Shown here: piece by piece, positions 33,877 to 50,840 of the stretch
Layout: each line of letters opens with the position of its first letter
Numbering within the stretch: position 1 is the first letter of the stretch
From: Enterococcus rotai
GTDB taxonomy: Bacteria; Bacillota; Bacilli; Lactobacillales; Enterococcaceae
Direction: 5' to 3'
Length of the DNA stretch: 64,000 nt
NCBI RefSeq assembly: GCF_001465345.1
Contig: NZ_CP013655.1
Span: 62,001 to 126,000 of the forward strand
Program-made: the position numbers and the translations under genes
Notes under the pieces: model-generated
The model's input: the letters and a program-made list of their open reading frames with translations, nothing else
The model's database searches: none
Told to the model about the DNA's origin: nothing

Positions 33877-34265
33877 ATGAGTGAATTAGATGTAATTTCT
33901 CCTAACGATAAAACTAAATAATTGGCACTTCCTGATCTGGCTACCAACCAAACTAGTGAAGTTTTGATTGAACAGCGTAACCTGCTTAAACAAATCGCCA
34001 ATAGTGTACGTCAAATTCTTATTTTTACATTCTTTTGTTTACTAGAAGACCGCAAATCTTCTCCTTCCAAGTACAAACGAGTAAAAATAATTGTTTTTTG
34101 ATATGCCTATTGTCAACGATTGCAGGTGTAACTGTAGTCGTTTTTTGTTGCTATCTTATAAAATTTGAGAAAAAGAGCAAAATAAATAGGCACTTCACCT
34201 ACCAGTACCACCCAGTAAATGAAGCCCTGAATAGACAGCGTAACCTATCTATCCAAGTTGCCTGA
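33877..34265 (+). pseudogene. Decayed small gene(s) with a repeated EQRNLLKQ motif
   Basis: From ATG at 33877 the frame reads MSELDVISPNDKTK, hits TAA at 33919, and stays open to 34101 with NQTSEVLIEQRNLLKQIANSVRQI and a short hydrophobic run. A second frame (34035-34265) has a membrane segment (FLICLLSTIAGVTVVVFCCYL) and ends NEALNRQRNLSIQ. The two QRNL segments are also alike in DNA (CAGCGTAACCT). This looks like a broken small membrane-protein gene, possibly once duplicated. Nothing else is visible in 33527-34384. Confidence 0.45.
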
Positions 34266-34384
34266 TTACTAGTACCGTAGCACTAGCTTCTTTATTGTAC
34301 CTAATTTTTGTAAGAATTTCTAGACAGTTTTTGAAATTTCTTCAAATTGGGCTAAGAAACGCGCTATAGTCTGTTAGTCATCCC

Positions 34385-34417
34385 AACGATAGAGGCGGCA
34401 ATCTCTATCGTTTTTTC
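34385..34417 (+). terminator. Strong terminator hairpin, possibly of a short RNA
   Basis: AACGATAGAG pairs perfectly with CTCTATCGTT around GCGGCAAT, followed by T6C. About 10 nt before it is a TATAGT -10 (34361-34366) with TTCAAA 18 nt earlier. A transcript from there would be only about 40 nt. It may be a leader attenuator for the gene at 34473 or a small RNA. Confidence 0.6.
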
Positions 34418-34472
34418 TTTTTCTCAATTGTTGATTGGTGCTTAAATAAACAATAAAAAGGAGAACTTACTT

Positions 34473-34745
34473 ATGAAAAATTCTGCACTTTGTATTAAAG
34501 CTGTTCCTTATCAGGAAATTATTGATCTTAGAGATACAGTTGAACGGTTACAATCATGGCAAGAACCGTTGGCGGTTTTGGAGAAGTATTTTACGAATCC
34601 AAATACGCCGATTAATAAGAAACAGGTTGTGAAAGATTATTATGCTTGTTCAAAACTTTTCCAAACTTTTAATACAGAGTTTAAAAACCTCAACTTAATT
34701 GCTGCAAAACAAGTATCAAAAATTCAAGAAGTAAATGCAAAATAA
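34473..34745 (+). CDS. Small protein of unknown function
   Basis: The protein has 90 aa with AAGGAGA about 10 nt before ATG. It is soluble and mainly helical (YQEIIDLRDTVERLQSW, KKQVVKDYYACSKLFQTF), without signal peptide or motif that I recognise. It lies at the edge of the toxin island, convergent with the AbrB-like gene, preceded by the hairpin at 34385. Codon use and a good ribosome binding site suggest a real gene. Confidence 0.6.
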   Translation: MKNSALCIKAVPYQEIIDLRDTVERLQSWQEPLAVLEKYFTNPNTPINKKQVVKDYYACSKLFQTFNTEFKNLNLIAAKQVSKIQEVNAK

Positions 34746-34795
34746 TTACTTATACAATAAAAGGGGCTCTATAAATCAGCCCCTAAATTATATAA

Positions 34796-35056
34796 TTACT
34801 TATTCTCTGCCATTTTTTTAAAAACTTGATCATGCTTATCCATAAAAAAATCTATATCAGATGAAAATGTTCCTAATAGATTTTCCGATTTAATCACTAA
34901 AGATTTTTCTAATGAGACTTGTCCATCACGAACAATAAAATCTAGTTGATCACTTTCATTTAAGGATAATGCTTGAATTACTTCATTAGGCAAAGATATG
35001 ATATATGTACCACCATGCTTTCTTATTCGCTCAGATTTTCTTATTCTTTTAGTCAT
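34796..35056 (-). CDS. AbrB/SpoVT-type (swapped-hairpin) DNA-binding protein
   Basis: The protein has 86 aa. The N-terminal half (RIRKHGGTYIISLPNEVIQALSL, then DQLDFIVRDGQVSLEK) is the AbrB/MazE swapped-hairpin pattern. The C-terminal half is a possible partner-binding tail. Such short proteins are often antitoxins or autorepressors. The upstream gene encodes a GNAT acetyltransferase 31 nt away in the same direction; whether the two form a pair is uncertain. Confidence 0.65.
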   Translation of the reverse strand: MTKRIRKSERIRKHGGTYIISLPNEVIQALSLNESDQLDFIVRDGQVSLEKSLVIKSENLLGTFSSDIDFFMDKHDQVFKKMAENK

Positions 35057-35087
35057 TTTAGTTTCTCCATGATTTTATTTATTAAAA

Positions 35088-35507
35088 TTAGCTTTTTTCA
35101 ACTTTCCCAATCAAGTTTTTTACCATCATTATTTCATAAGGCTCATTTGTCGGGAAAAATCCCCCAACTGTTTTAAAACCCAATTTAAGATATAAATGCT
35201 GAGAATACTCTTCACTGGAAGTTGACAGCATAAGTTCTTTAAACCCTTGAACGATCATTTCACGCTCAAAAAAATGCATTAAATCTGTCCCATATTGTTT
35301 ACGTCTAAAAGGTTCCAAGATAAACAACATATCCACAAATGGAATAGACTCCCAAAAGAAACTAAATCTAAGCCAACCGATCATTTCATTTTCTTCAATA
35401 ATCAGAATTCTATTTTCCTCAATAGCTAAGCGAAGTCTCTCTTGAGGTATGTGAGTATCATGTATCGCTAATAAATCTAGATCCATTAATGTTGCATTCC
35501 GTATCAT
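35088..35507 (-). CDS. GNAT-family N-acetyltransferase
   Basis: The protein has 139 aa from ATG at 35507 (MIRNATLMDL), with AGAAGG 9 nt upstream. The acetyl-CoA-binding motif A region is LEPFRRKQYGTDLMHFFE (R/Q-x-x-G-x-G/A-like), followed by LSTSSEEYSQHLYLKLGF typical of motif B. The substrate is unknown. It is co-directional with the AbrB-like gene downstream. Confidence 0.75.
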   Translation of the reverse strand: MIRNATLMDLDLLAIHDTHIPQERLRLAIEENRILIIEENEMIGWLRFSFFWESIPFVDMLFILEPFRRKQYGTDLMHFFEREMIVQGFKELMLSTSSEEYSQHLYLKLGFKTVGGFFPTNEPYEIMMVKNLIGKVEKS

Positions 35508-35644
35508 CCTTGATAACCTTCTTTCATACAGCTTTATAGATTGATTATACAATAAAAAGTATGTTTCATTTCTTAATTATTCACACTTACAAAAAAATGA
35601 GCCAAAACTATTCAATAGTTTTAACCCATCAATCTTTGCTTATC

Positions 35645-36601
35645 TTATTTCCCAGTAATCGAATCCCAAAGTCCGCTAAAGAAGCCTTTAATATTCTCCC
35701 AAAGTCCTTTAGATTTCTCCTGAATTTGCTCTTTCGTTTTAGACAAATCTAGTTGATTAACAAAATCTTCAAAAATATTTTTGTCTTTCATATCACTCAT
35801 CAAAGTCGTTAATTCTTTCACCTGATCTGATGACATTACATCTTTGATTCCTTGACTTTGCAAGGCATTTTCAACAGTTTTTTGAATATCTGCTTGCGTC
35901 AGATTTTTACCATCAGCCGTTTTTGCTGCCAATTCTTTTTTCGCTTGTTCTTGTGCTGCATTCAAGGCTTCATCGGAATACCCATCTTTGTCTTTATTTT
36001 CTTCTGTGATCTTAGATAGTACGTCCATTTCGTCCTGTGCAACACCTACACGGTCTCGATTGATGATCCCACCAGATTCTTCGACAATCTTATAGACACC
36101 TGCTAAAGCGCCTGAACCATCGATTGGCACAGCGGATGCAACAGTTAATTTGGCATCTGTTATCCCAGCAGTTAACGCTGCATTTTGATACTGAGCTTCT
36201 GTGATTTTCGTGATATTTTTAGGTGTAGCGATATCTACAGAGATTCCATCCCCTTTTTTCTGCGTTTCCATCCGAACAGAACTATACACCGCCCATTCTG
36301 ATGTGAAGCCACCATCAGGGATAAAGCTCATCAAATCTTTCCCAGTTGTTGTGTATTGAGGTGTTTCACCTTTAATTCCTAATTCTTTTAACGTAAAATC
36401 CTTTTGCTCTTGGGTCAGTGCATTACCTAAGGCAACCGCATTGATTTGTAGATTTTCTTCAACGCTACTGCTTGTCTCAGTATTCGTTGAGCTTGTTGTT
36501 GTGCTTTGCTCTGTCGCAAATGCTGTCGTACCACTATAGATACTTGTTGAAATCAAAAGTAAGCTCATCGCTACTGCTAGTTTTTTTTGTTTTTGTTTCA
36601 T
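35645..36601 (-). CDS. Secreted DUF1002 protein
   Basis: The protein has 318 aa with a classic signal peptide (KQKQKKLAVAMSLLL, cleavage near AFA-TEQ, about residue 30) followed by a Ser/Thr-rich stretch. The mature part starts with ALGNALTQEQKDFTLKELGI and has FTSEWAVYSSVRME and the long helical C-terminal half, all as in DUF1002. The family has no known activity. GGAGG precedes ATG. A weak hairpin (AAAACTATT/AATAGTTTT, near 35595-35625) may terminate it. Confidence 0.82.
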   Translation of the reverse strand: MKQKQKKLAVAMSLLLISTSIYSGTTAFATEQSTTTSSTNTETSSSVEENLQINAVALGNALTQEQKDFTLKELGIKGETPQYTTTGKDLMSFIPDGGFTSEWAVYSSVRMETQKKGDGISVDIATPKNITKITEAQYQNAALTAGITDAKLTVASAVPIDGSGALAGVYKIVEESGGIINRDRVGVAQDEMDVLSKITEENKDKDGYSDEALNAAQEQAKKELAAKTADGKNLTQADIQKTVENALQSQGIKDVMSSDQVKELTTLMSDMKDKNIFEDFVNQLDLSKTKEQIQEKSKGLWENIKGFFSGLWDSITGK

Positions 36602-36717
36602 AAAAATCCTCCTAAAATAACTTCTATTTGTTTCATACTATACAACACTTTTTTTAGTTATTCCTTAAGGACGATCCCATTTTTATAAATTTTTACTGTA
36701 TTTTAACTTCTTTTCTC

Positions 36718-37689
36718 TCATTGATCTAGATATTTAGGATAAAACATTTCTCGCTGTTTTCTCAATCGATACTGAATTTGCTGAATAAAACGGTTCGGAG
36801 CAGTCACTTTTAAAAAGGGACCAAACGACAATACTTGAATCAATAACTCTGTTTCATCTTGAGCTAAGTAAAAGATCGTCAACTGATACATTGCCTCATC
36901 TTCTAATTTTTGTGTGACTTTTCGATAATTGGAAAAATGAAATGTCGCTCTCTCCAAAGTATCACGCTGATCTTTTAGTAGACAAGTAATTGATTTTTCT
37001 GTTATACGCTGTACGCTGTTGTTTTCAAAGTGCTGCTTTAATAAACGAACAGTTTGTATCTCAGATACATTCAACAGACAATTTTCCCACTTGCCTTTTT
37101 TTGTTTGGCGTTTTCCCTTTAAGCGAAACTTATTATTTTTATGCGAATACTCGATTTTATCTGGTTTTATTCGATGTGTGACATTCACTTGGTTATCTAA
37201 GCCTTGATACTCTATTTCAAGATACAGCTGCTTTTGGATGCCTGCAACTAATAAATGAATATTTCGTTGATATTCAGTATTATGAAATCGATCATCAGTT
37301 TGAAATTGATCATAATAATCGATATCTTCTGGTCCAAATAAAACTGAAACTTCCTGCAATTGATTCAATAAATGTAACTGTTCAGCTTCAGTTAAAAATA
37401 ACGAGATTTTGTCGTCTTGTAGCATTGTTTTTAGCCACTGCTTTTCCAATAAGGTCACTGGACGTTGCGGTAACTGATGTAAAATAGAGTGATAGCACTC
37501 TTTGTCTTGCTTGACTAAATGCCACGCATCTTCTTCATTAAAAAAAGCATCTGCAAAATGAAAGAGTGTCTCACCATAGCCATTTTCCTCAATGACTTGC
37601 TGAATTTCATTTTTATTCATTGGTAATTGCTGCAGCACTTTTTCTGCAATCGCAAAATATTGCCCATAAATTTCGTGAAATAACGGCAT
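36718..37689 (-). CDS. WYL-domain protein, second of a coupled pair
   Basis: The protein has 323 aa. A WYL core is visible in the middle: LYLEIEYQGLDNQVNVTHRIKPDKIEY-type block at about 155-180, then FRLKGKRQTKKGKW and NVSEIQTVRLL, with a C-terminal WCX-like extension (LIQVLSFGPFLKVTAP). No clear helix-turn-helix at the N-terminus. Its ATG overlaps the partner's stop (TAATG), so the two are made together, perhaps as a heterodimer like PafB/PafC. Divergent from hen1, so control of RNA repair is inferred. Confidence 0.8.
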   Translation of the reverse strand: MPLFHEIYGQYFAIAEKVLQQLPMNKNEIQQVIEENGYGETLFHFADAFFNEEDAWHLVKQDKECYHSILHQLPQRPVTLLEKQWLKTMLQDDKISLFLTEAEQLHLLNQLQEVSVLFGPEDIDYYDQFQTDDRFHNTEYQRNIHLLVAGIQKQLYLEIEYQGLDNQVNVTHRIKPDKIEYSHKNNKFRLKGKRQTKKGKWENCLLNVSEIQTVRLLKQHFENNSVQRITEKSITCLLKDQRDTLERATFHFSNYRKVTQKLEDEAMYQLTIFYLAQDETELLIQVLSFGPFLKVTAPNRFIQQIQYRLRKQREMFYPKYLDQ

Positions 37690-38834
37690 TATCTTTGTAC
37701 CTCCTCTTCAAAATAGAGTGAGTACATTTTTTGGTAATCCACCCAAAACTGTTTTTCCCACAAGCGATTCGTACATTGAATTTTTTCGATACGTCCAAAA
37801 AAGGTTCTTAAAAATGGCGTAATAGCTACCATATCAGCTAACTTTATTTGAAAAAGATAGCGATTTTTTTCTAACCTTGTAACGTCACCTTGACGTTTTT
37901 CTTTTTCCAACCGTCGAATCAAATATACTTCCTTCTCTTCATCAATTGAAAAGAATACTTTTAGCACTTGGGTCGGTCGGTTCGCTATTGCTGCGTTCCA
38001 TACAACCTCTTTTTGCTTTAAAAGTTGTTCTTGATAGAGAGCAGTTTGGGGATTTACAGCTTTTAATTTTACATGACTGATCGTGTGTAAACGTATAGAG
38101 TATAAGCGTTTTTTGCCTTTCAATTTGCCAACAAGATGTTGATGAATGGCTTGTAACAGTAATAAAGTGACCTCAGCATCAAAGGTTTGGTGGAAAAATG
38201 TATGCTTAAAAACATAAGGCGATCTTTGAATCTTTGTCTCACGAGCTAAAAGATGCTCTCCGATAATTCCAACAGGAAACACTTCTTTATAAAATTGAAT
38301 TGCTTGTAATACATTTTCTGACAATACCATCCTTGGTTGCTGTTGATAGTATAGCGTTTTCCCTTGCTTACTTTCTTGTAAAATACCTAATGCAACATAT
38401 TCTTTCACTTTTTTTCTAATGGTCAAAGGATCTAGCATATAATCATCTTGAAAAACACTCAAATAATCCGTATCAATCAGTTCAACTAATTCAGCAATCG
38501 TAAATTTTTGTTGATCAATAAAAATATCCAATAAAACAAAGTGTAAAAAAATATCATTTTTTGTAAATGATTTACTCTTCCATAATCGCTGAAATGGATT
38601 TTCGCTTTTTCGATGACCGTCAATCGCTAGACGCAGTGTTTTTTTCCCATTGTTATAATCAATTTCAATAAACTCTGAAAAAAAGCTCTCGATCCTTCGG
38701 CGTTCATTATCATAGCTTCGCTTACTCCCATATGTAAATTCTTCCCGATCCTTAAAACCGTAGATATAAAAATCTCTTGCGTATCTACGCAAGATTTCAC
38801 TATTTTTGACTAATTCCTGAAACTTCTTTGCCAT
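37689..38834 (-). CDS. WYL-family transcriptional regulator, first of a coupled pair
   Basis: The protein has 381 aa with AAGGAGA before ATG. N-terminal region (1-160) includes a winged-helix-like segment TIAELVELIDTDY...LTIRKKVKEYVALGILQESKQG. The C-terminal part is WYL-like (RLHTISHVKLKAVNP) with a WCX-like end (VTRLEKNRYLFQIKLADMVAITPFLRTFFG). It faces hen1 across 244 bp that contain the conserved 122-bp-type element. WYL proteins sense nucleic acids or nucleotides in several defence and DNA-damage systems, so sensing RNA damage is an attractive but untested idea. Confidence 0.8.
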   Translation of the reverse strand: MAKKFQELVKNSEILRRYARDFYIYGFKDREEFTYGSKRSYDNERRRIESFFSEFIEIDYNNGKKTLRLAIDGHRKSENPFQRLWKSKSFTKNDIFLHFVLLDIFIDQQKFTIAELVELIDTDYLSVFQDDYMLDPLTIRKKVKEYVALGILQESKQGKTLYYQQQPRMVLSENVLQAIQFYKEVFPVGIIGEHLLARETKIQRSPYVFKHTFFHQTFDAEVTLLLLQAIHQHLVGKLKGKKRLYSIRLHTISHVKLKAVNPQTALYQEQLLKQKEVVWNAAIANRPTQVLKVFFSIDEEKEVYLIRRLEKEKRQGDVTRLEKNRYLFQIKLADMVAITPFLRTFFGRIEKIQCTNRLWEKQFWVDYQKMYSLYFEEEVQR

Positions 38835-38940
38835 ATGTTCTCCTTTTTTCTCCCTTTTATCCTATTTAAACAAAGGAAAGACTTATGCGCAACTTTTTTT
38901 AAAAGATAAGTTATGTATTATCAATTATGATAAAAGCAAC

Positions 38941-39066
38941 TTAAATATATCTAGTTTCCTGAGCTAGTCTAAAAAAAATAAAAAGTGACAGTGACATAAA
39001 AACAACACACTCATTTTTCTTATTTTTCATTGAGACAAACCAAGCTCATCACACTTTTAATTCTAG
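38941..39066 (+). repeat. Diverged copy of the 122-bp leader element, flush with the hen1 ribosome binding site
   Basis: TTAAATATATCTAG, GAGCTAGTCT, CTCATTTTTCTTATTTTTC, CCAAGCTCATC and ACTTTTAATTCTAGGAGGA align in order with the unit at 868-995. As in pucR, the element ends in the AGGAGGA of the gene. Confidence 0.75.
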
Positions 39067-39078
39067 GAGGAAGTTCTT

Positions 39079-40353
39079 ATGGCTTTTATCAAATTACACT
39101 CTACTAACCCAAAATTATCCTATCTCTTATACAAAAATCCAGCTAGTGGTATGCAGCTAAGAAAAATCAGAAAGGGCTTTGGATATGGCTGGTACCCGAA
39201 TGAGCTCACCTATTGTGCTTATTTCTCAGATTCAGACTCAACCATTTCTTTTCGCCCAACAAGAGAAGAAGAAAAACATTATTTAAATGTCTCTCAATAC
39301 CAGGCACCTTTAGCTTACCTATCGTTATTAACTGAATATTTTAGCTATCCCATGAAGGAGCAAGACCTTGATGAAAAGGGCTATACATACACATTGATTT
39401 TTGCTTCCATTGCCGTTCGACGTATGCATTTTTTACGTTTTTTCCAACAACAATTCCCTTCAATTTCTCTAACTTATGAAGAAGAATTGGAAAATATTGG
39501 TAAGTTAACTATCCAAACTGAGGGATCTTTACATGACTTACTTCATTACGCGCAACTCTTTTTATTTTTCCAAGCATTGTTTGCACCTGAGTTTTTAGAC
39601 GAAACAGAGTCATCCATCAGCAAGCAAATCACTTCTTTAAAAGCAATCGATGCACCCTTTTACTTACGAAATCTTTTTGTACGACATTTTTTAAATCGTC
39701 GAAATCTTTTTAATCGTTTTAAAGAAGAAATTGAAGAAACAGAACGCTATACAATCCAGTTTGCTTTTGGACAAACCAATTTACAACGACGTAATCTGGC
39801 AGAATCCTTGCTCGATTTTGATCGTAATATCGTTGATATTGGCTGTGGTGAAGGCTATTATATTTCACATTTTTCACAAAAGATAAACGAAAAAACTTAC
39901 TCAGCAATTGATAGTAATCCTGAAGTTTTAGCTGTTGCAAAAGAAAAAGTTGCAAAAAAAGAACTGGAAAATGTCCAATTTTATTCTTCACTTGAGGAAT
40001 GGATAGCACAGTCGCATACCAAAGAAGCAGTCGACGTTTTATTAATGGAAGTCGTTGAACATATGGAAAAAGCTATTGCTACGACGTTTGTTCAAAAAAT
40101 CTTACAACAAAACATTCACAAACTTATACTCTCAACACCCAATCATTCATTTAATAAACACTATTATTTAACCGACGAACAAAAGCGTCATGACGACCAT
40201 CACTGGGAAATGGATGAAGCTGAATTTAGAACTTGGATAAATGAATTAGTAGACTTAACCCAATACACAATAGAATTTTTAGCGATTGGGGATCAAGTTG
40301 ATCAAGTTAGCACAACACAAGGTGTCTTGATCCAAAGAAAGGAACTATCATAA
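39079..40353 (+). CDS. hen1: Hen1 RNA 3'-terminal ribose 2'-O-methyltransferase
   Basis: The protein has 424 aa. Residues 1-235 are the Hen1 N-terminal domain known to bind and activate the Pnkp ligase (KIRKGFGYGWYPNE, YLNVSQYQAPL). Residues 240-424 are a SAM methyltransferase: VDIGCGEGYY (about 252), SAIDSNPEVL, then the Mn-binding EVVEHM (about 323) with STPNHSFN and DDHHWEMDEAEF. It methylates the 2'-OH of a broken RNA 3' end before ligation so the repaired site cannot be cut again. AGGAGGAAG precedes ATG; its stop overlaps the pnkp ATG (TAATG). Confidence 0.95.
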   Translation: MAFIKLHSTNPKLSYLLYKNPASGMQLRKIRKGFGYGWYPNELTYCAYFSDSDSTISFRPTREEEKHYLNVSQYQAPLAYLSLLTEYFSYPMKEQDLDEKGYTYTLIFASIAVRRMHFLRFFQQQFPSISLTYEEELENIGKLTIQTEGSLHDLLHYAQLFLFFQALFAPEFLDETESSISKQITSLKAIDAPFYLRNLFVRHFLNRRNLFNRFKEEIEETERYTIQFAFGQTNLQRRNLAESLLDFDRNIVDIGCGEGYYISHFSQKINEKTYSAIDSNPEVLAVAKEKVAKKELENVQFYSSLEEWIAQSHTKEAVDVLLMEVVEHMEKAIATTFVQKILQQNIHKLILSTPNHSFNKHYYLTDEQKRHDDHHWEMDEAEFRTWINELVDLTQYTIEFLAIGDQVDQVSTTQGVLIQRKELS

Positions 40354-42896
40354 TGATTATTGAAACAAAAATGCATACTATCTTTTTACTAGTTGGACCA
40401 ACTGAATGCGGTAAAACAACTTTTTCAAAGGATATTTTAATGAAACAATTAACTATTACAGATCCAGAAAAAAACTTTACCAGCAATGTACAATATTTAT
40501 CTTCCGATGATATTCGCCAAGAGTTGCTTGGACATTCATTTGATAAATACGATCGAGTAATGTTGGAGGCTAGTAACATTGCCTTTCCATTTTTAAAAGA
40601 AAAACTAAAAGCAGTTACCACCTATCCAATTAGCGCAGAATTCGTCATTGTGGATACGACTGGATTAGCTAAAGAATTCCGTGAAGAAATGGTCAAACTT
40701 GCCAGAGAGCAAAACTATCGCATTGAAACGATTGTCTTTGACTATAAAAATCGTGACGATTACTATCAAAGTGAACGTTCACGTCGCTTAATCAGTGATC
40801 ACATTCAACGTTTAAAACGAGAAGTCTTGCCCCAATTAGCAAAAGAAAATTATCATATGATTCACCGATTGCCAAAAAATGATTTTTCAGATATTTCTGT
40901 GACAATTACAGACAAAGAAGACTATTGTTCTTGCCTCTTACCAGCCAATCAAACCTATGATGTTATTGGCGATGTTCATGAGTGTTTAGATACACTTAAA
41001 GAACTATTAACTAAATTAGAGATGTCAGCAAGCAAAAATGCGTCAATCGATTCAACTAAAACGATTCTTGGCGGCGACTGGATCGATAAGGGTAATAATA
41101 CCAGAAAAATCATTGAATTCCTCTATGATAACCAAGAGAAGTTTTTGTTTACCATGGGTAATCATGAAAACTTTGTTTATAAGTACTTAAAAGAAACGAT
41201 CAAGGGCACTCAAAAAGAGATACTAGAAACCTATTTTGATTCGATTCCTGTCTTGCAACAAGACCAAGAATTGGCTGAAAAATTTTTCCAGCTAGTAGAA
41301 CAAAGTAAGCCCTTTTTCCGTAGAATCGGTACGAACAATCAATCGTTTATTGTCACTCACGCTCCATGTAAAGCTAAATATTTAGGTAAATTGGATGCTC
41401 TTTCCCAAAAGAAACAGCGGAATTTCCGTATAAATCGTGAGGCTGATCTTCAAGAACAATTAGCATTTCTTGAAGATGAAAGTTATTTTAACTTACCACT
41501 ACACATTTTTGGACACGTTGCGAATCAAGAAGCTTTCCGCTTGAAAAACAAACGGAGTATCGATACTGGAGCTGTTTCAAAAAATCATTTAACAGCCATT
41601 CGAATCCTCCCATACAAAACAATGTTATACTCAGTTTCATCTAACGAAGGAGTAAAAGAAACACTTCCTCTTTTATTCTCGAAACCCAAACGAGCATCTT
41701 GGACATTACTTTTCGATGAACAAAAACGGAAACTTCGTTACATGGTCAAAAACAAAATACAGTTTGTCTCAGGAACGATGGCACCTGCTGCAGCAGAACA
41801 AGAGAATAATGATTTGGAATCTCTGGAGCAAGGACTTCAATACTTCAAACAAAAAGGGGTTAAAGAGTTGATTTTGCAGCCTAAATACATGGGCTCTCGC
41901 TGTAATATCTATCTTTTTGATACCATTGATCAATGTTACGCTATCACTCGAAATGGTAACAGAATCCAACATTTAGATTTAACTGGTATCTACCAACAAT
42001 TATTGACAAAGTTTGGCTCTTATATGCAAAAGCACAAAATCGACATGTTATTATTAGACGGAGAATTATTGCCATGGTCTGCCTTAGGTGACGGTTTAAT
42101 AAAGAAAGAATATCGACCAATTGCAAAAAGTTTAGAAATAGAAAATACCTTTCTAAAAGAAAATGACTTTGATCAAGCCTTTGAAAACTTACAAAAAGGG
42201 ATGTTAAACACGACCTATTCCTACGATGTAAAACACAATAGTAAAAAAGAATTGAAAAAGAAATATGGTGAATTTAAGGCTAGTCAATACAACTATTTAT
42301 TAGAAGTTGCACCGTATTATGTACCGGTTTATGAGAAAGAGCAGTTCTCAAAAATCTATGAAAATCAGCTTACATTGTACGGCGTTGAATCTGAACTATC
42401 ATACAAACCGTTTGATTTGCTAAAGATTATTTATAAGAGTGGAATTGAAGAATTGCCAAATTGGTCAAGCATAGAACGTTACAACTTTGTTTCAGATGAT
42501 CTATTTCAAGTCATCGATTTACAACAACCCGAAGCTTTAGCACTGGCAACACAATTTTTCGATTCAATTACAGTGGATCAACAAATGGAAGGTATCGTAT
42601 TAAAACCCAATTATTTAACTGAAAACACCGTACCTTTCATTAAAGTCCGTAACAAAGATTACTTAACTTTAATTTATGGCTATGATTATCAATGGGGGCC
42701 ACGTTATAAAAAATTGATCGCAAATAAAAAAATTGGTGGCAAACTAAAAACCTCTTTAAAAGAACATGAACTTGCAAAAGAGCTTTTAGCTATTCCTATT
42801 CAGGAAATTAATGAACACAATGAAACTTACCTCACTATTTTAGCAGATTTACTATTTGAATTAGCTAAAGAAAAAGAACTTGATCCTCGACTATAA
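40353..42896 (+). CDS. pnkp: Pnkp polynucleotide kinase-phosphatase-ligase
   Basis: The protein has 847 aa, full length. The kinase domain (about 1-180) has P-loop GPTECGKTT (15-23). The metallophosphatase domain (about 200-440) has GDVHE, GGDWIDKG, MGNHEN, THAPC and FGH. The ligase domain (about 470-847) has nucleotidyl-lysine motif PKYMGSR (Lys near 511), LLLDGELLPW and, toward the end, EGIVLKP and PFIKVR. It heals 5'-OH and 2',3'-phosphate ends and seals RNA, working as a heterotetramer with Hen1. Translationally coupled to hen1. Confidence 0.96.
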   Translation: MIIETKMHTIFLLVGPTECGKTTFSKDILMKQLTITDPEKNFTSNVQYLSSDDIRQELLGHSFDKYDRVMLEASNIAFPFLKEKLKAVTTYPISAEFVIVDTTGLAKEFREEMVKLAREQNYRIETIVFDYKNRDDYYQSERSRRLISDHIQRLKREVLPQLAKENYHMIHRLPKNDFSDISVTITDKEDYCSCLLPANQTYDVIGDVHECLDTLKELLTKLEMSASKNASIDSTKTILGGDWIDKGNNTRKIIEFLYDNQEKFLFTMGNHENFVYKYLKETIKGTQKEILETYFDSIPVLQQDQELAEKFFQLVEQSKPFFRRIGTNNQSFIVTHAPCKAKYLGKLDALSQKKQRNFRINREADLQEQLAFLEDESYFNLPLHIFGHVANQEAFRLKNKRSIDTGAVSKNHLTAIRILPYKTMLYSVSSNEGVKETLPLLFSKPKRASWTLLFDEQKRKLRYMVKNKIQFVSGTMAPAAAEQENNDLESLEQGLQYFKQKGVKELILQPKYMGSRCNIYLFDTIDQCYAITRNGNRIQHLDLTGIYQQLLTKFGSYMQKHKIDMLLLDGELLPWSALGDGLIKKEYRPIAKSLEIENTFLKENDFDQAFENLQKGMLNTTYSYDVKHNSKKELKKKYGEFKASQYNYLLEVAPYYVPVYEKEQFSKIYENQLTLYGVESELSYKPFDLLKIIYKSGIEELPNWSSIERYNFVSDDLFQVIDLQQPEALALATQFFDSITVDQQMEGIVLKPNYLTENTVPFIKVRNKDYLTLIYGYDYQWGPRYKKLIANKKIGGKLKTSLKEHELAKELLAIPIQEINEHNETYLTILADLLFELAKEKELDPRL

Positions 42897-42919
42897 TATT
42901 TTTAAAAGGAGGTACCCAT

Positions 42920-43678
42920 ATGGACCAAACAATAAAACAAGAACTCGATAGAATAGCTGAAAAAGAACAGATTCAAATTTTATATGCTGTAGAATCCGGC
43001 AGCCGTGCTTGGGGATTTCCTTCTAAAGACAGTGATTACGATGTTCGTTTTATCTACACTCGTCCTAAAAAATCGTATTTACAGTTACAACCTACAAAAG
43101 ATGTGCTGGAATACCCGATATCTGGCGATTTAGATATTAGCGGTTGGGATTTAGATAAAACATTAAAATTACTGAGGAAAAATAATCCTGCACTTTTAGA
43201 ATGGCTAGCTTCTCCCATTATTTATAAGAAAAACACCTCATTCTATCGCGAACTTTGCTTACTTTCTGACAAAATTCAACAGCCTAAAGGACTGATTTAT
43301 CATTATTTGCATATGGCTAAAGGGAATTTTAGAGATTATTTGAAGCAGGAACAAGTGAAAAGCAAAAAATATTTTTATGTTTTGCGTCCCTTACTTGCTT
43401 GTATGTGGATCGAGTATTATCACGAAAAACCACCAGTTCCTTTCGAACAACTATTAACAATTCCTAGTTTATCCACTGACTTTTTAGATGCTGTAGCACA
43501 ATTACTAATCAGGAAAAAAGCGGGCGAAGAATTAGCATTAGAAGAACAAATTCCGGAAATCCAAGCATTTATCAAAGAAAAAATCACTTATTTTGAGTCC
43601 TATGTTCTAACATTAGAAACGCTCCCTTCGATTTCCTATGACGAATTGAATGACTTCTTTTTTAAATGGATTGAATAG
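42920..43678 (+). CDS. rlaP: RlaP: RNA-ligase-associated polymerase-beta-type nucleotidyltransferase
   Basis: The protein has 252 aa with AAAGGAGG before ATG, 23 nt after pnkp. The nucleotidyltransferase motif is complete: GSRAWGFPSKDSDYDV, with Gly27-Ser28 and catalytic Asp39/Asp41, and a third acid plausibly in GDLDISGWD. The rest is a helical PF10127-type domain (LLRKNNPALLEWL, YLHMAKGNFRDYL). This family is repeatedly found beside RNA repair ligases and may add nucleotides to damaged RNA ends. Its exact reaction is unknown. Confidence 0.88.
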   Translation: MDQTIKQELDRIAEKEQIQILYAVESGSRAWGFPSKDSDYDVRFIYTRPKKSYLQLQPTKDVLEYPISGDLDISGWDLDKTLKLLRKNNPALLEWLASPIIYKKNTSFYRELCLLSDKIQQPKGLIYHYLHMAKGNFRDYLKQEQVKSKKYFYVLRPLLACMWIEYYHEKPPVPFEQLLTIPSLSTDFLDAVAQLLIRKKAGEELALEEQIPEIQAFIKEKITYFESYVLTLETLPSISYDELNDFFFKWIE

Positions 43679-43683
43679 TAAAA

Positions 43684-43725
43684 AACTAGAAGCTTGAGGC
43701 CATTATCTCAAGCTTCTAGTTTCTC
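43684..43725 (+). terminator. Terminator of the RNA-repair operon
   Basis: ACTAGAAGCTTGAG pairs perfectly with CTCAAGCTTCTAGT, followed by a short T-rich tail. The remaining sequence to 43936 contains no gene that I can support. Confidence 0.75.
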
Positions 43726-43936
43726 TATTAATATCCATTATTTAAACAATATACCCGCCTATTTATTAGCATGGATTTTACAACTTACTGACCTAGTCCA
43801 GTTGTGAGGATCGATATGGTTATGTACGCAATTTTAGTATAATGAACAGAGAATAAATTATAACAATACAGGCAAAAATTATTCTATCTTTTGTTTTCAA
43901 CTTTTCCTTGAGGTCCAAATAAACAAAAAGAGCTGA

Positions 43937-43984
43937 CAAAAAAACTTTCGCAATTCAGAATAAATTCTGAAGAACGAAAGCTTC
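43937..43984 (-). terminator. Terminator of the ptsHI operon
   Basis: On the minus strand CTTTCGTTCTTCAGAAT pairs with ATTCTGAATTGCGAAAG with small bulges, followed by T7. Confidence 0.8.
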
Positions 43985-43994
43985 TAATTACTAT

Positions 43995-45722
43995 TTACTT
44001 CGTATAATCCTTAACCAAGTCAATAACTTCTTCCATTGTATCGCAGTCATTCAACGCACGATCCGCAAGTTCAGCCATTTTCTTAGTGTCTAGACGTTTC
44101 ATCAAGCTACGAGTTTGAAGAATAGATGTCGCACTCATTGAGAACTCATCTAAGCCCATTCCTACCAATAATGGTACAGCCATTTGATCACCGCCCATTT
44201 CTCCACACATACCAGTCCATTTACCTTCTGCATGAGATGCGTCAATCACGTTTTTAATCAAACGTAGAATTGATGGGTTATATGGTTGGTACAAGTAAGA
44301 AACGCGTTCGTTCATACGGTCTGCTGCCATTGTGTATTGAATCAAGTCATTTGTTCCAATACTGAAGAAATCAACTTCTTTGGCGAATTTGTCAGCAATT
44401 ACAGCTGCTGCAGGAATTTCGATCATGATACCAACTTGAATCGTATCAGAAACTTTTGTTCCTTCAGAAACTAATTTTGCTTTTTCTTCTTCAAAGATTT
44501 TCTTCGCTGCTCTGAATTCTTTTAACGTTGCAACCATTGGGAACATGATACGTAAGTTACCGTGAACAGAAGCACGTAATAATGCGCGCATTTGTGTACG
44601 GAACATTTCGTCGCCACGTTCAGATAAGCTGATACGTAATGCACGGTACCCTAAGAATGGGTTCATTTCATGCGGTAATTGAAGATAAGGTAATTCTTTA
44701 TCTCCACCGATATCCATTGTACGAACCACGACAGGTTTGCCGTTCATGCCTTCAAGTACTGCAGTATAAGCTGTATATTGTTCATCTTCTGTTGGGAAAT
44801 CTGGAGAATCCATGTAAAGGAATTCTGTACGATATAAACCAACAGCTTCAGCACCATTGTTGTGTACGCCTTCTAAATCTTTAGGAGTACCAATGTTAGC
44901 AGCGAGCTCGATGTGTTTACCATCAGCAGTTACTGTTTCAGCATTTTTTAGTTTTTCCCATTCAACTTTAAGATCAGCATACTCTTTGCCTTTTGCTTCA
45001 AATTCAGCTTTTTCAGCATCAGTTGGGTGAACGATAACATCGCCATCGATTCCGTTAACCGCTAAAATATCGCCTTCTTTGACTTTGGCAGTGATTTCTT
45101 TTGTCCCTACGATTGCAGGAATTTCAAGAGAGCGAGCCATGATCGCTGAATGTGATGTACGTCCGCCAATATCCGTTACGAATGCTTTTACATACGTGCG
45201 GTCTAATTGAGCAGTATCACTTGGTGTTAAGTCATGGGCAACCACGACTACTTCTTCGTTAATCATTGAAGGATTAGGAAGAGTAACACCTAATAAATGA
45301 GCTAAAATACGTTTTGCAACATCACGAATATCAGCCGCACGTTCTTGCATGTAGGCATTATCATCCATCGCTTCGAACATACCGATATACATATCAGTCA
45401 CTTCTTTTAACGCTGATTCAGCATTTACTTTGTTATCTTGAATGTTTTGTTTGATTTGACCGATCATTTCTGGGTCAGCTAAAACCATTAAATGTGCGTC
45501 AAATACTTGTGCTTCTTCTTCACCAAGGCTTTGCGCTGCTTTTTCTCTGATTGCTTGCAACTCAGTCGTAGATTTTGCCAAAGCAGCATCTAAACGGCTT
45601 TCTTCGGCAGATGTATCTTCTACAGATTTTTTGTCGAAAGATAAATCAGGTTGAACTAACAGGTAAGCTTTAGCAATAGCGACACCATCACTTGCGGCAA
45701 TTCCTTTTAGCATTTCAGACAT
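43995..45722 (-). CDS. ptsI: Phosphotransferase system Enzyme I
   Basis: The protein has 575 aa, full length. The phospho-histidine site [13 protein letters not shown] lies near residue 189. The PEP-binding barrel shows [28 protein letters not shown] and [11 protein letters not shown]; the C-terminal Cys lies in [10 protein letters not shown]. It transfers phosphate from PEP to HPr. ATG overlaps the ptsH stop (TAATG) for coupled translation. Confidence 0.98.
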
Positions 45723-45988
45723 TATTCTGACAATCCTTCTTTTTTCATTGTGTCTACGATTGCTGCTAATGCATCAGCTTCGTCAACACCGTCAACTGAG
45801 ATAGTTACGTCTGAACCTTGGCCAACGCCTAGAGACATAACGCCCATGATTGATTTAAGGTTAACAGATTTACCTTTGTATTCTAAGTTGATATCTGAGT
45901 TGAATTTACTTGCAGTTTGTACTAATAATGTAGCTGGACGAGCGTGAATCCCTGTTTCTGCTACGATGTGAAAATCTTTCTTTTCCAT
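45722..45988 (-). CDS. ptsH: Phosphocarrier protein HPr
   Basis: The protein has 88 aa. His15 in TGIHARPAT accepts phosphate from Enzyme I; Ser46 in [12 protein letters not shown] is the HPr-kinase site that makes HPr a CcpA corepressor. GAAGGAGA lies upstream of ATG. Its presence fits the cre sites seen at 11899 and 47482. Confidence 0.98.
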
Positions 45989-46095
45989 ATGAATCGGTCT
46001 CCTTCGTAAGTAAAATAATTTTTTATGTTAGGGTTTTCCTTTCTTGACACGTTTCAAGTGAAACTAGAATCGAGAAAATACCCTTTCAATTTTTA

Positions 46096-46124
46096 AGATT
46101 ACCATTTTTTGTGAGTAGATACAA
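46096..46124 (-). promoter_or_regulatory. Promoter of ptsHI
   Basis: TTGTAT, 17 nt, TAATCT on the minus strand, giving a leader of about 100 nt that includes the near-palindrome TTTCACTTGAAAC. Confidence 0.6.
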
Positions 46125-46161
46125 CACTTTTCACCTATTTTTTATCGATTGAAATGATCAA

Positions 46162-46353
46162 TTAATTTTCTTCCTTCATATAATGATATATAATTCGTCC
46201 ATTTAATCCAGCTTCCCCGACAAATAACATTCGATCTGGTAAATTTTTCCAAACTTCTCTAAAGGTGGTAAAATCTTTTGGTTCTACGATAAGTTCAGAA
46301 ATAGTCCCTTCTTTTAAGGCATTGATTTGTTCTTCAAATGGATTTTCGATCAT
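46162..46353 (-). CDS. Small conserved-looking protein of unknown function
   Basis: The protein has 63 aa: acidic N-terminus (ENPFEEQINALKEG), then FREVWKNLPDRMLFVGEAGLN and a Tyr/His-rich end (IIYHYMKEEN). It looks like a compact soluble domain. I do not recognise a named family. It lies just upstream of ptsH in the same direction, and the ptsH promoter lies between them, so it is probably separate. Confidence 0.6.
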   Translation of the reverse strand: MIENPFEEQINALKEGTISELIVEPKDFTTFREVWKNLPDRMLFVGEAGLNGRIIYHYMKEEN

Positions 46354-46547
46354 TATTCACACCACTCTCTTTTTTTGGCTTGTTGCTATTTTAAGATAAA
46401 ACGACTGAATTGTCTAACAAGATAAATAATTGAATAGAATCATTCTTCGCTTAGTTCCTCAAGCAAGATAAACGTTCTTCTCAATTCTGTAAATAAAAGC
46501 TGAGCAATCAAAAAATACCTAGTTTTCTCGTGCTTAACTATTTTCTT

Positions 46548-47420
46548 TTATTCCTCCATTGGTTTGGCAGTTGCTCTTCGGTAATTAGCAAGTTTAGACG
46601 TTTCTATAATATGTGCCATATTCGATTCAAAATTCTTAGCAAATATGGCGGAATATAGAATATCAAGAATATGAAGTATAGAAGTATTCGTTGAATATTG
46701 ACCTATTTTTGAATACAATTTTTCTCTAGTCGTCATATGGAGAACGATATCTGAATTTAGAGTCAATAAATTTTCAGTTAAACTAGTAATTGCAATAATT
46801 GACAAATGCTTAGATTTAAGGGTTTGCATAATTTCGTCCATTTTTTTGCTACTTCCACTATAAGAAATCACCAAGGCAACAGAATCTTCTTTCATATTTA
46901 ACACATCATAGATATGTTCACCTTCCAATGAACTCAATGTTACATTTTTTAAGATTCTTTTCATTTTAAATTGGAATTCACTTGCAAGCAGCAGATTGAT
47001 ATTGCTTGCAAATATTTTTATCTCACCTGCACTATCTAAAACATCAACTGCTGAGCTGAGTGTTTTATACGATAGTAATTCAACGGTATCTTCTAACGAT
47101 TCTTTCTTTATTTCCGTAACTTTATTGGCAATACTAATGATCGTATCTTTGTTATCAAAAGGAATATTTAAATCAATGTTATTAACCTGTCTATCAAAAT
47201 AAGCTATTTCTCTTAAGAAGCTCTCTTTAAATTCGTTCCAGCCCTTGAATCCTATTCTTTGTGCCACTCGAACAAATGTTGCTGGCGAGGTAAAGCTTTG
47301 CTTGGAAAGTTCTTTTAAAGTCAAGTTGTTAATATCGTACCCTTGTCTAAGTATGTACTTAACAGCTTCTTGTTCAGCACTCGAAAATGTTGCGGCCTCG
47401 ATTAAATCAATAATAGACAT
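46548..47420 (-). CDS. RpiR-family regulator with SIS domain
   Basis: The protein has 290 aa. The N-terminal helix-turn-helix (LTLKELSKQSFTSPATFVRVAQRIGFKGW, split by a short linker) is the RpiR type; the C-terminal SIS domain (about 120-260) has IFASNINLLLASEFQFK, VALVISYSGSSKKMDEI and IIAITSL. Such regulators sense phosphosugars. It is divergent from the beta-glucoside PTS operon, which it presumably controls. AAGGAGAG precedes ATG. Confidence 0.88.
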   Translation of the reverse strand: MSIIDLIEAATFSSAEQEAVKYILRQGYDINNLTLKELSKQSFTSPATFVRVAQRIGFKGWNEFKESFLREIAYFDRQVNNIDLNIPFDNKDTIISIANKVTEIKKESLEDTVELLSYKTLSSAVDVLDSAGEIKIFASNINLLLASEFQFKMKRILKNVTLSSLEGEHIYDVLNMKEDSVALVISYSGSSKKMDEIMQTLKSKHLSIIAITSLTENLLTLNSDIVLHMTTREKLYSKIGQYSTNTSILHILDILYSAIFAKNFESNMAHIIETSKLANYRRATAKPMEE

Positions 47421-47439
47421 TTATTCTCTCCTTCCTTCA

Positions 47440-47457
47440 TTGAAACGTCATTTCAAT
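47440..47457. promoter_or_regulatory. Candidate RpiR operator
   Basis: ATTGAAACGTCATTTCAAT is an inverted repeat (ATTGAAA/TTTCAAT, 5-nt spacer) 20-38 nt before the regulator ATG, suited to autoregulation or to control of the divergent operon. Confidence 0.5.
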
Positions 47458-47481
47458 AATAACATATGAAAACTCAAATAA

Positions 47482-47496
47482 ATGGAAACGTTTTTT
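47482..47496. promoter_or_regulatory. Candidate cre site before the beta-glucoside operon
   Basis: ATGGAAACGTTTTTT matches the cre consensus at 13 of 15 positions, about 90 nt before the PTS start codon. Confidence 0.45.
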
Positions 47497-47583
47497 CTAT
47501 TTCTCTTTAAGTTATTCTAAGTAATTATTATAGGAAGTATAATTTGACTTGTAAACAGGCAAATATAGAAAGGGGTTTTCAAA

Positions 47584-50840
<3,257 letters not shown>

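Follow-up and report, generated by a model that had tools for sequence, protein, structure and literature searches.

A 64,000-nt stretch of the Enterococcus rotai genome (one 3.75-Mb contig), hereafter the window, carries the three RNA-repair genes hen1, pnkp, and rlaP and, divergent from them, two genes for WYL-family regulators, which we designated REG1 and REG2. The analysis of these genes, their promoter, and their relatives suggests that they form a five-gene cassette for RNA repair that includes its own damage-responsive switch, in which a PafBC-like pair of WYL activators probably induces RNA repair upon RNA damage. This reading draws on the predicted folds of the regulators, a conserved promoter module, and the linkage of the pair to repair genes.

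REG1 (37689-38834, minus strand) is divergent from hen1, and REG2 (36718-37689, minus strand) adjoins it. Neither protein of the window matched any Pfam family at E ≤ 0.001, WYL (PF13280) included. The PF13280 cut-off of 21.8 bits was exceeded by the REG1 relatives L131 (39.3 bits) and L149 (26.2 bits) and by the REG2 relative L040 (22.0 bits), and several other relatives of REG1 and REG2 scored below it. The fold of REG1 was taken from a model of its Enterococcus crotali relative, and that of REG2 from the window's own protein, which was modeled with a pLDDT of 90 and compared with known folds by VIA-align. The E. crotali REG1 model contained two winged helices, a WYL domain, and a WCX domain, and its fold neighbors included DriD, PafBC, BrxR, and CapW. 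The REG2 model contained a winged helix, WYL, and WCX, and BrxR and CapW were also near in its comparison. In these models, both regulators have the fold of WYL transcription factors.

The pair resembled PafBC and DriD in being WYL regulators with the domain order winged helix-WYL-WCX, in lying as two adjacent genes, and in its association with a promoter with a weak -35. In contrast to PafBC and DriD, REG1 and REG2 adjoin RNA-repair rather than DNA-repair genes, and the REG1 model has an extra N-terminal winged helix; sequence similarity was at a weak profile level only. RtcR, the regulator of rtcBA, senses tRNA halves with a cyclic phosphate (PMC7790460). RtcR is likewise a dedicated regulator of an RNA-repair operon, but it has a CARF and an AAA+ domain, and REG1 and REG2 show neither: no Pfam match to these domains was obtained up to E = 1 in the REG1/REG2 proteins scanned. 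The promoter described here is also of a different kind, with -35 and -10 boxes.

The divergent intergenic regions of different repair operons contained one common element. The common module is TTCGCAACTTTTTTT-N4-GATA, followed after 17 bp by TANNNT, and the version of the element in Clostridia is mostly TTCGCAACTTTTTTTCCGTGATA. In the window, the operator-like element TGCGCAACTTTTTTTAAAAGATA (38886-38908, plus strand, 23 bp) is conserved and has its last six bases at the -35 position, and the -10 box TATGAT (38926-38931, plus strand) stands exactly 17 bp after it. Of 81 distinct core matches, 65 had TANNNT exactly 17 bp after the element, and the 18 other spacings (8-26) had 0 to 12 matches each. 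In a survey of named genomes, which covered the best 80 of 363 REG1 relatives, the full module was found at 60 of the 80 REG1 loci (61 matches); in the dinucleotide-shuffle control of all 80 loci, 19 of 20 rounds gave no match and the remaining round gave one. Bases outside the search pattern were also conserved (G20 in 59/59 sites; T1 and T2 in 54/59 each). Among 87 rows, which take in some duplicated loci as well as a chance match at 38630 of the window, the first recognized gene 3' of the module was in most cases rtcB, a DUF2828 gene, Band-7, or hen1, sometimes past short ORFs, with L106, L131, and L138 as exceptions.

The exact element was then searched for in 66 chosen genomes, 24 with REG1 (G074 and G075 counted among these) and 42 without; the REG1 check gave no match in the 42 negatives and recovered all five known positives. 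The element was present in 17 of the 24 REG1 genomes, always as a single copy at the REG1 site, and in one of the 42 REG1-free genomes, at an unrelated place (G017). In the genome of the window it occurred once, at the REG1-hen1 site. At the REG1/REG2 locus of G450, whose remote REG1 and REG2 scored 97.7 and 46.7 bits against the profiles, no recognizable element was found, and the module as defined is therefore not universal. The last six bases of the element make a poor -35, and T and G occupy two of the three positions before the -10 box in 27/59 and 32/59 sites. Because the core lies just upstream of the -35, in a fixed 17-bp phase to the -10 box, and the -35 is poor, the layout would suit an activator-dependent promoter.

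In the mechanism that we favor, RNA fragments would bind the WYL domains of REG1 and REG2, and the two proteins, acting as a pair, would bind the element and activate the repair promoter. The ligand is the weakest step of this proposal. The pair might instead sense DNA damage or single-stranded DNA (ssDNA), with RNA repair as one output of a DNA-damage response. PafBC senses ssDNA (PMC11804915), DriD has been solved bound to ssDNA according to the titles of its structure entries, and in Salmonella DNA damage causes tRNA to be cleaved and the rtc operon to be induced (PMC7790460). However, the pair adjoins RNA-repair genes and the exact element is confined to this one site in the genome, and we consider DNA sensing the less likely reading.

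The pair could instead be a repressor that, like the phage-defense WYL repressors, occupies the -35 region and is displaced by a ligand. The nearest folds include BrxR and CapW, WYL proteins have been described as repressors of defense pathways (PMC11888443), and the element extends onto the position of the -35 hexamer. However, DriD and PafBC, which are activators, also rank among the closest folds, and the promoter layout described above suits an activator; repression appears unlikely. A general promoter feature unrelated to the pair, whether an UP element or the site of another factor, is an improbable explanation for the conserved element. The T-tract 5' of the -35 does resemble an UP element, but bases beyond the T-tract and outside the search pattern were conserved, such as the invariant G20, and the exact element was concentrated in REG1 genomes (17/24 versus 1/42).

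Several further observations concern the DNA 3' of the element. The 5' untranslated region of hen1 (window 38950-39072) contains part of a dispersed repeat with seven matches in the genome, itself included, two of the others lying just upstream of ORFs. The segment 39013-39070, just 5' of hen1, had been considered as an operator, as it recurs in the genome; it was rejected as part of this dispersed repeat and was not common to the operons of distant relatives. At Band-7 loci (L113, L117, L121, L129, and others), leaders of several hundred bases separate the element from the Band-7 gene. A tRNA-like T-arm, GGTTCGAATCC, was present in many of 13 Band-7 leader rows, and Rfam and ARAGORN reported a tRNA match in L149 (11154-11224) and a tRNA-Lys in L102, respectively. 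The Band-7 leaders possibly give rise to a tRNA-like RNA from the same promoter.

Relatives of REG1 and REG2 recurred beside hen1-pnkp-rlaP, rtcB-rlaP, rtcB alone, and rtcB with hen1-pnkp. Across the order, REG1 was present in 19 of 395 sampled genomes, and repair genes adjoined it in 19/19, decayed in one (G074). The decayed copy (L086:682-2375) consists of a REG1 fragment and then four fragments of a DUF2828-type gene. REG2 was detected at all 80 REG1 loci of the named-genome survey, and at least one of rtcB, rlaP, hen1, pnkp, Band-7, and DUF2828 at 69 of them (rtcB at 44, DUF2828 at 26, Band-7 at 22, rlaP at 21, hen1 at 7, and pnkp at 6). The 11 loci without these genes comprised five on contigs shorter than 7.5 kb and six on longer ones. 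The DUF2828/DUF7788 proteins may be described as TROVE-like, which is our own reading and not a statement of Pfam.

RtcB served as a control for this linkage in 66 genomes. Canonical RtcB (E below 1e-70) was present in 15 genomes; 14 of these genes adjoined REG1, and the 15th was in a REG1-free genome (G111). A divergent RtcB paralogue (150-165 bits) was present in 26 genomes and in no case beside REG1, and the nine divergent paralogues in REG1 genomes either lay on a different contig or were separated from REG1 by at least about 80 kb. Across Bacillota, the WYL pair travels with repair operons while the type of ligase changes. The genome of the window also encodes a second, divergent RtcB-like protein far from the cassette, approximately 31% identical to canonical RtcB (L194:5729-6991; G000:C1:1835729-1836991).

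In the window, the five genes, the element, and a terminator-like perfect 16-bp stem 3' of rlaP (43683-43722) lie between a DUF1002 gene and ptsI (36705-43874, ends approximate). Alignment with relatives placed the ends at 36705-36711 and 43874-43935, depending on the relative. In the cassette-free same-genus genomes G001, G004, G010, and G014, the DUF1002-ptsI gap was 0.17 to 0.86 kb versus 7.4 kb in the window and contained no ORF longer than 67 aa; in three of them the junction held about 0.4 kb of different sequence, and the flanks met directly in G010. G007, G008, and G012 had different genes between the DUF1002 gene and ptsI, and no ptsI was found in the stretch of G005 examined. The same five genes were found in other chromosomal surroundings in G002, G006, and G015. 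By these alignments, REG2, REG1, the promoter, hen1, pnkp, rlaP, and the stem form one transferable unit. The DUF1002-ptsI site itself is an apparent insertion hotspot, holding the cassette, nothing, or unrelated genes depending on the relative.

The sequence-only reading had called hen1-pnkp-rlaP complete, a description that leaves out the two regulators travelling with the operon (69/80 loci; one insertion); the divergent pair, the promoter module, the stem, and the cassette boundaries all lie outside the coordinates it gave. The enzymes alone would account for what that reading found, but an ordinary Pnkp-Hen1-type operon whose regulators are passengers controlling something else is very improbable, as the pair remains beside repair operons even where the ligase or the chromosomal location differs, the five genes are one insertion, and a single promoter module stands in front of the repair genes; that REG1 and REG2 are unrelated neighbors was rejected on the linkage, the RtcB control, and the single insertion.

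A broader proposal, to which we give somewhat less than even credence, is that this previously unnamed pair is a heterodimeric WYL activator serving many Bacillota as a dedicated RNA-damage sensor. It would read broken RNA ends as PafBC reads ssDNA and drive one promoter module before interchangeable kits (RtcB, TROVE-like, Band-7, RlaP, and Hen1-Pnkp), the switch being constant and the ligase swapped. In the excerpts of the literature on WYL proteins with RtcB, RNA ligase, or Hen1, no description of the REG1/REG2 pair and its promoter was found, and WYL genes next to repair operons may have been noted before; nor did the excerpts searched name a regulator of RNA repair in Bacillota. Regulation of RNA-repair pathways has been ascribed in a general way to some CARF/WYL factors (PMC9503650), and the sole WYL heterodimer reported senses DNA (PMC11804915). 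If the proposal is true, an RNA-sensing WYL pair would extend a family whose one reported heterodimer senses DNA. The regulator pair with its precise conserved promoter also offers a direct handle: a promoter reporter would reveal the RNA damage felt by the cell, and the 23-bp element could serve to detect repair operons that contain unknown components.

The three enzyme genes were confirmed as ORFs on the plus strand: hen1 (39079-40353, 424 aa), pnkp (40353-42896, 847 aa), and rlaP (42920-43678, 252 aa). The stop of hen1 and the start of pnkp share one base, and the pnkp-rlaP gap is 23 nt. The hen1 product, with a ligase-activating Hen1_N domain and a 2'-O-methyltransferase, matched Pfam Hen1_N at 239.6 bits, above the curated cut-off, and a methyltransferase family. 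The pnkp product, with kinase, metallophosphatase, and ATP-dependent ligase in a single chain, matched PNKP_ligase (100 bits), Metallophos (39.9 bits), and AAA_33 (36.6 bits), each above its curated cut-off. RlaP, an RNA-repair-associated polymerase-beta-type nucleotidyltransferase, matched PF10127 over its full length at 302.9 bits (cut-off 23). No Rfam match over the gathering score was obtained in window 34000-50000.

The motifs named in the sequence-only reading were present and were compared over 9 Hen1, 9 Pnkp, and 11 RlaP proteins of relatives; in the following strings, which are the catalytic motifs of their families, lower-case letters mark variable positions and all others were invariant. 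They are EVvEHM and RHdDHhwE in Hen1; GptEcGKtT in the kinase, GDvHE, GDwIDKG, GNHE, THAPC, and FGHvA in the phosphatase, and PKYMGSR, LDGEL, MEGiVlKP, and KVRN in the ligase of Pnkp; and ESGSRAWGFpSkDSDyD, which includes the GS...DxD site, in RlaP. The ligase and Hen1 motifs aligned with those of Capnocytophaga Rnl and Hen1, respectively. On this evidence, Pnkp is predicted to phosphorylate the 5'-OH end and remove the 2',3'-cyclic or 3' phosphate of cut RNA, Hen1 to methylate the terminal 2'-OH and enable the ligase, and the ligase to seal the ends; RlaP would probably restore nucleotides lost at the 3' end. RlaP is known to co-occur with RNA ligases, and a role in replacing lost nucleotides has been predicted for it (PMC7824862). 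The in vivo substrates of Pnkp-Hen1-type repair are stated to be unknown (PMC4411300).

Domains and motifs thus give good support to an RNA-repair operon for end healing, 2'-O-methylation, and sealing with RlaP, as had been read from the sequence; its identification as the classical Pnkp-Hen1 system did not hold. That label was rejected because the scores were far under the curated cut-offs: 175.4 bits against 750 for Pnkp with NCBIfam TIGR04075, the best stretch being residues 8-426, and 85.6 against 340 for Hen1 with TIGR04074, over the methyltransferase part only. The nearest solved relative of the ligase was Capnocytophaga Rnl (196.8 bits, E = 5.3e-57; classical Pnkp ligase, 55.7 bits), and that of Hen1 was Capnocytophaga Hen1 (119.5 bits, E = 1.9e-33).

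As in the classical system of Clostridium thermocellum and Anabaena, kinase, metallophosphatase, and ligase are in one polypeptide, hen1 adjoins pnkp, and Hen1 combines an N-domain with a 2'-O-methyltransferase; unlike in that system, the ligase and Hen1 are nearer to the Capnocytophaga proteins, and RlaP and the WYL pair are attached. In Capnocytophaga (PDB 4xrp), Rnl is a protein distinct from Pnkp1, with hen1 far from the operon of the two, and the phosphatase belongs to another superfamily (PMC4411300). The window ligase and Hen1 are homologous to 4xrp chains, whereas the window has one 847-aa chain with a metallophosphatase, adjoining hen1. Judged by these matches, the window Pnkp is a classical-type kinase-metallophosphatase (residues 8-426) fused to an Rnl-type ligase beside hen1, a third arrangement, in which known enzyme parts are combined in a new way. 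The same hen1-pnkp arrangement was found in other enterococci, in Listeria goaensis (L082), and in G450 (6.8-Mb genome, same class). No difference was found between the window RlaP and its family (PF10127), and the PDB search with RlaP found no solved relative, giving a single chance-level match (E = 1.1).

The nearest relative found was Enterococcus crotali (G003), with 87-89% identity over Hen1, Pnkp, and RlaP. The survey bore out the patchy distribution expected in the sequence-only reading: Hen1 was present in 5 of 22 same-genus genomes, a sixth having weak methyltransferase matches only, and of 398 genomes sampled from the phylum, 2 had Hen1_N. On a quick tree of 36 REG1 proteins, picked from those with known ligase type, the ligase-type label needs three changes. 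The six Enterococcus Hen1-Pnkp rows formed a supported group; Hen1-Pnkp also occurred in the very remote G450, whose placement is unsure because of its long branch.

In this strain, the WYL barrel of REG1 is 30 residues short, in frame, at approximately 38141. The missing residues correspond to positions 232-261 of the E. crotali protein and, in its model, to the first two strands of the barrel. All 53 other aligned rows keep these residues, and Gly-Arg at 260-261 is conserved in 53/53. With two WYL strands and the conserved Gly-Arg lost, ligand sensing is therefore probably impaired here and the operon uninducible or fixed, and the expression of hen1-pnkp-rlaP may be abnormal; the inference of the sequence-only reading that this strain can recover from tRNA-cleaving toxins is not supported as it stands. 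The deletion may also be an assembly error. In E. crotali, the REG1-REG2 junction looks disrupted, with an unusual REG1 C-terminus and a shortened REG2 frame (L034:3847-6051).

Some REG1-linked operons showed further peculiarities. Directly 3' of rtcB, two of them encode mutually unrelated proteins of 691 and 707 aa with no Pfam match (L073:9679-11754 and L082:4072-6195), and in G315 the REG1-adjoining rtcB is interrupted by an insert with a 604-aa ORF (L081:8960-12701). In a comparison with the window proteins only, rlaP was also found in ten further genomes of the family (L041, L042, and L044-L051) without the window's other repair or regulator genes nearby.
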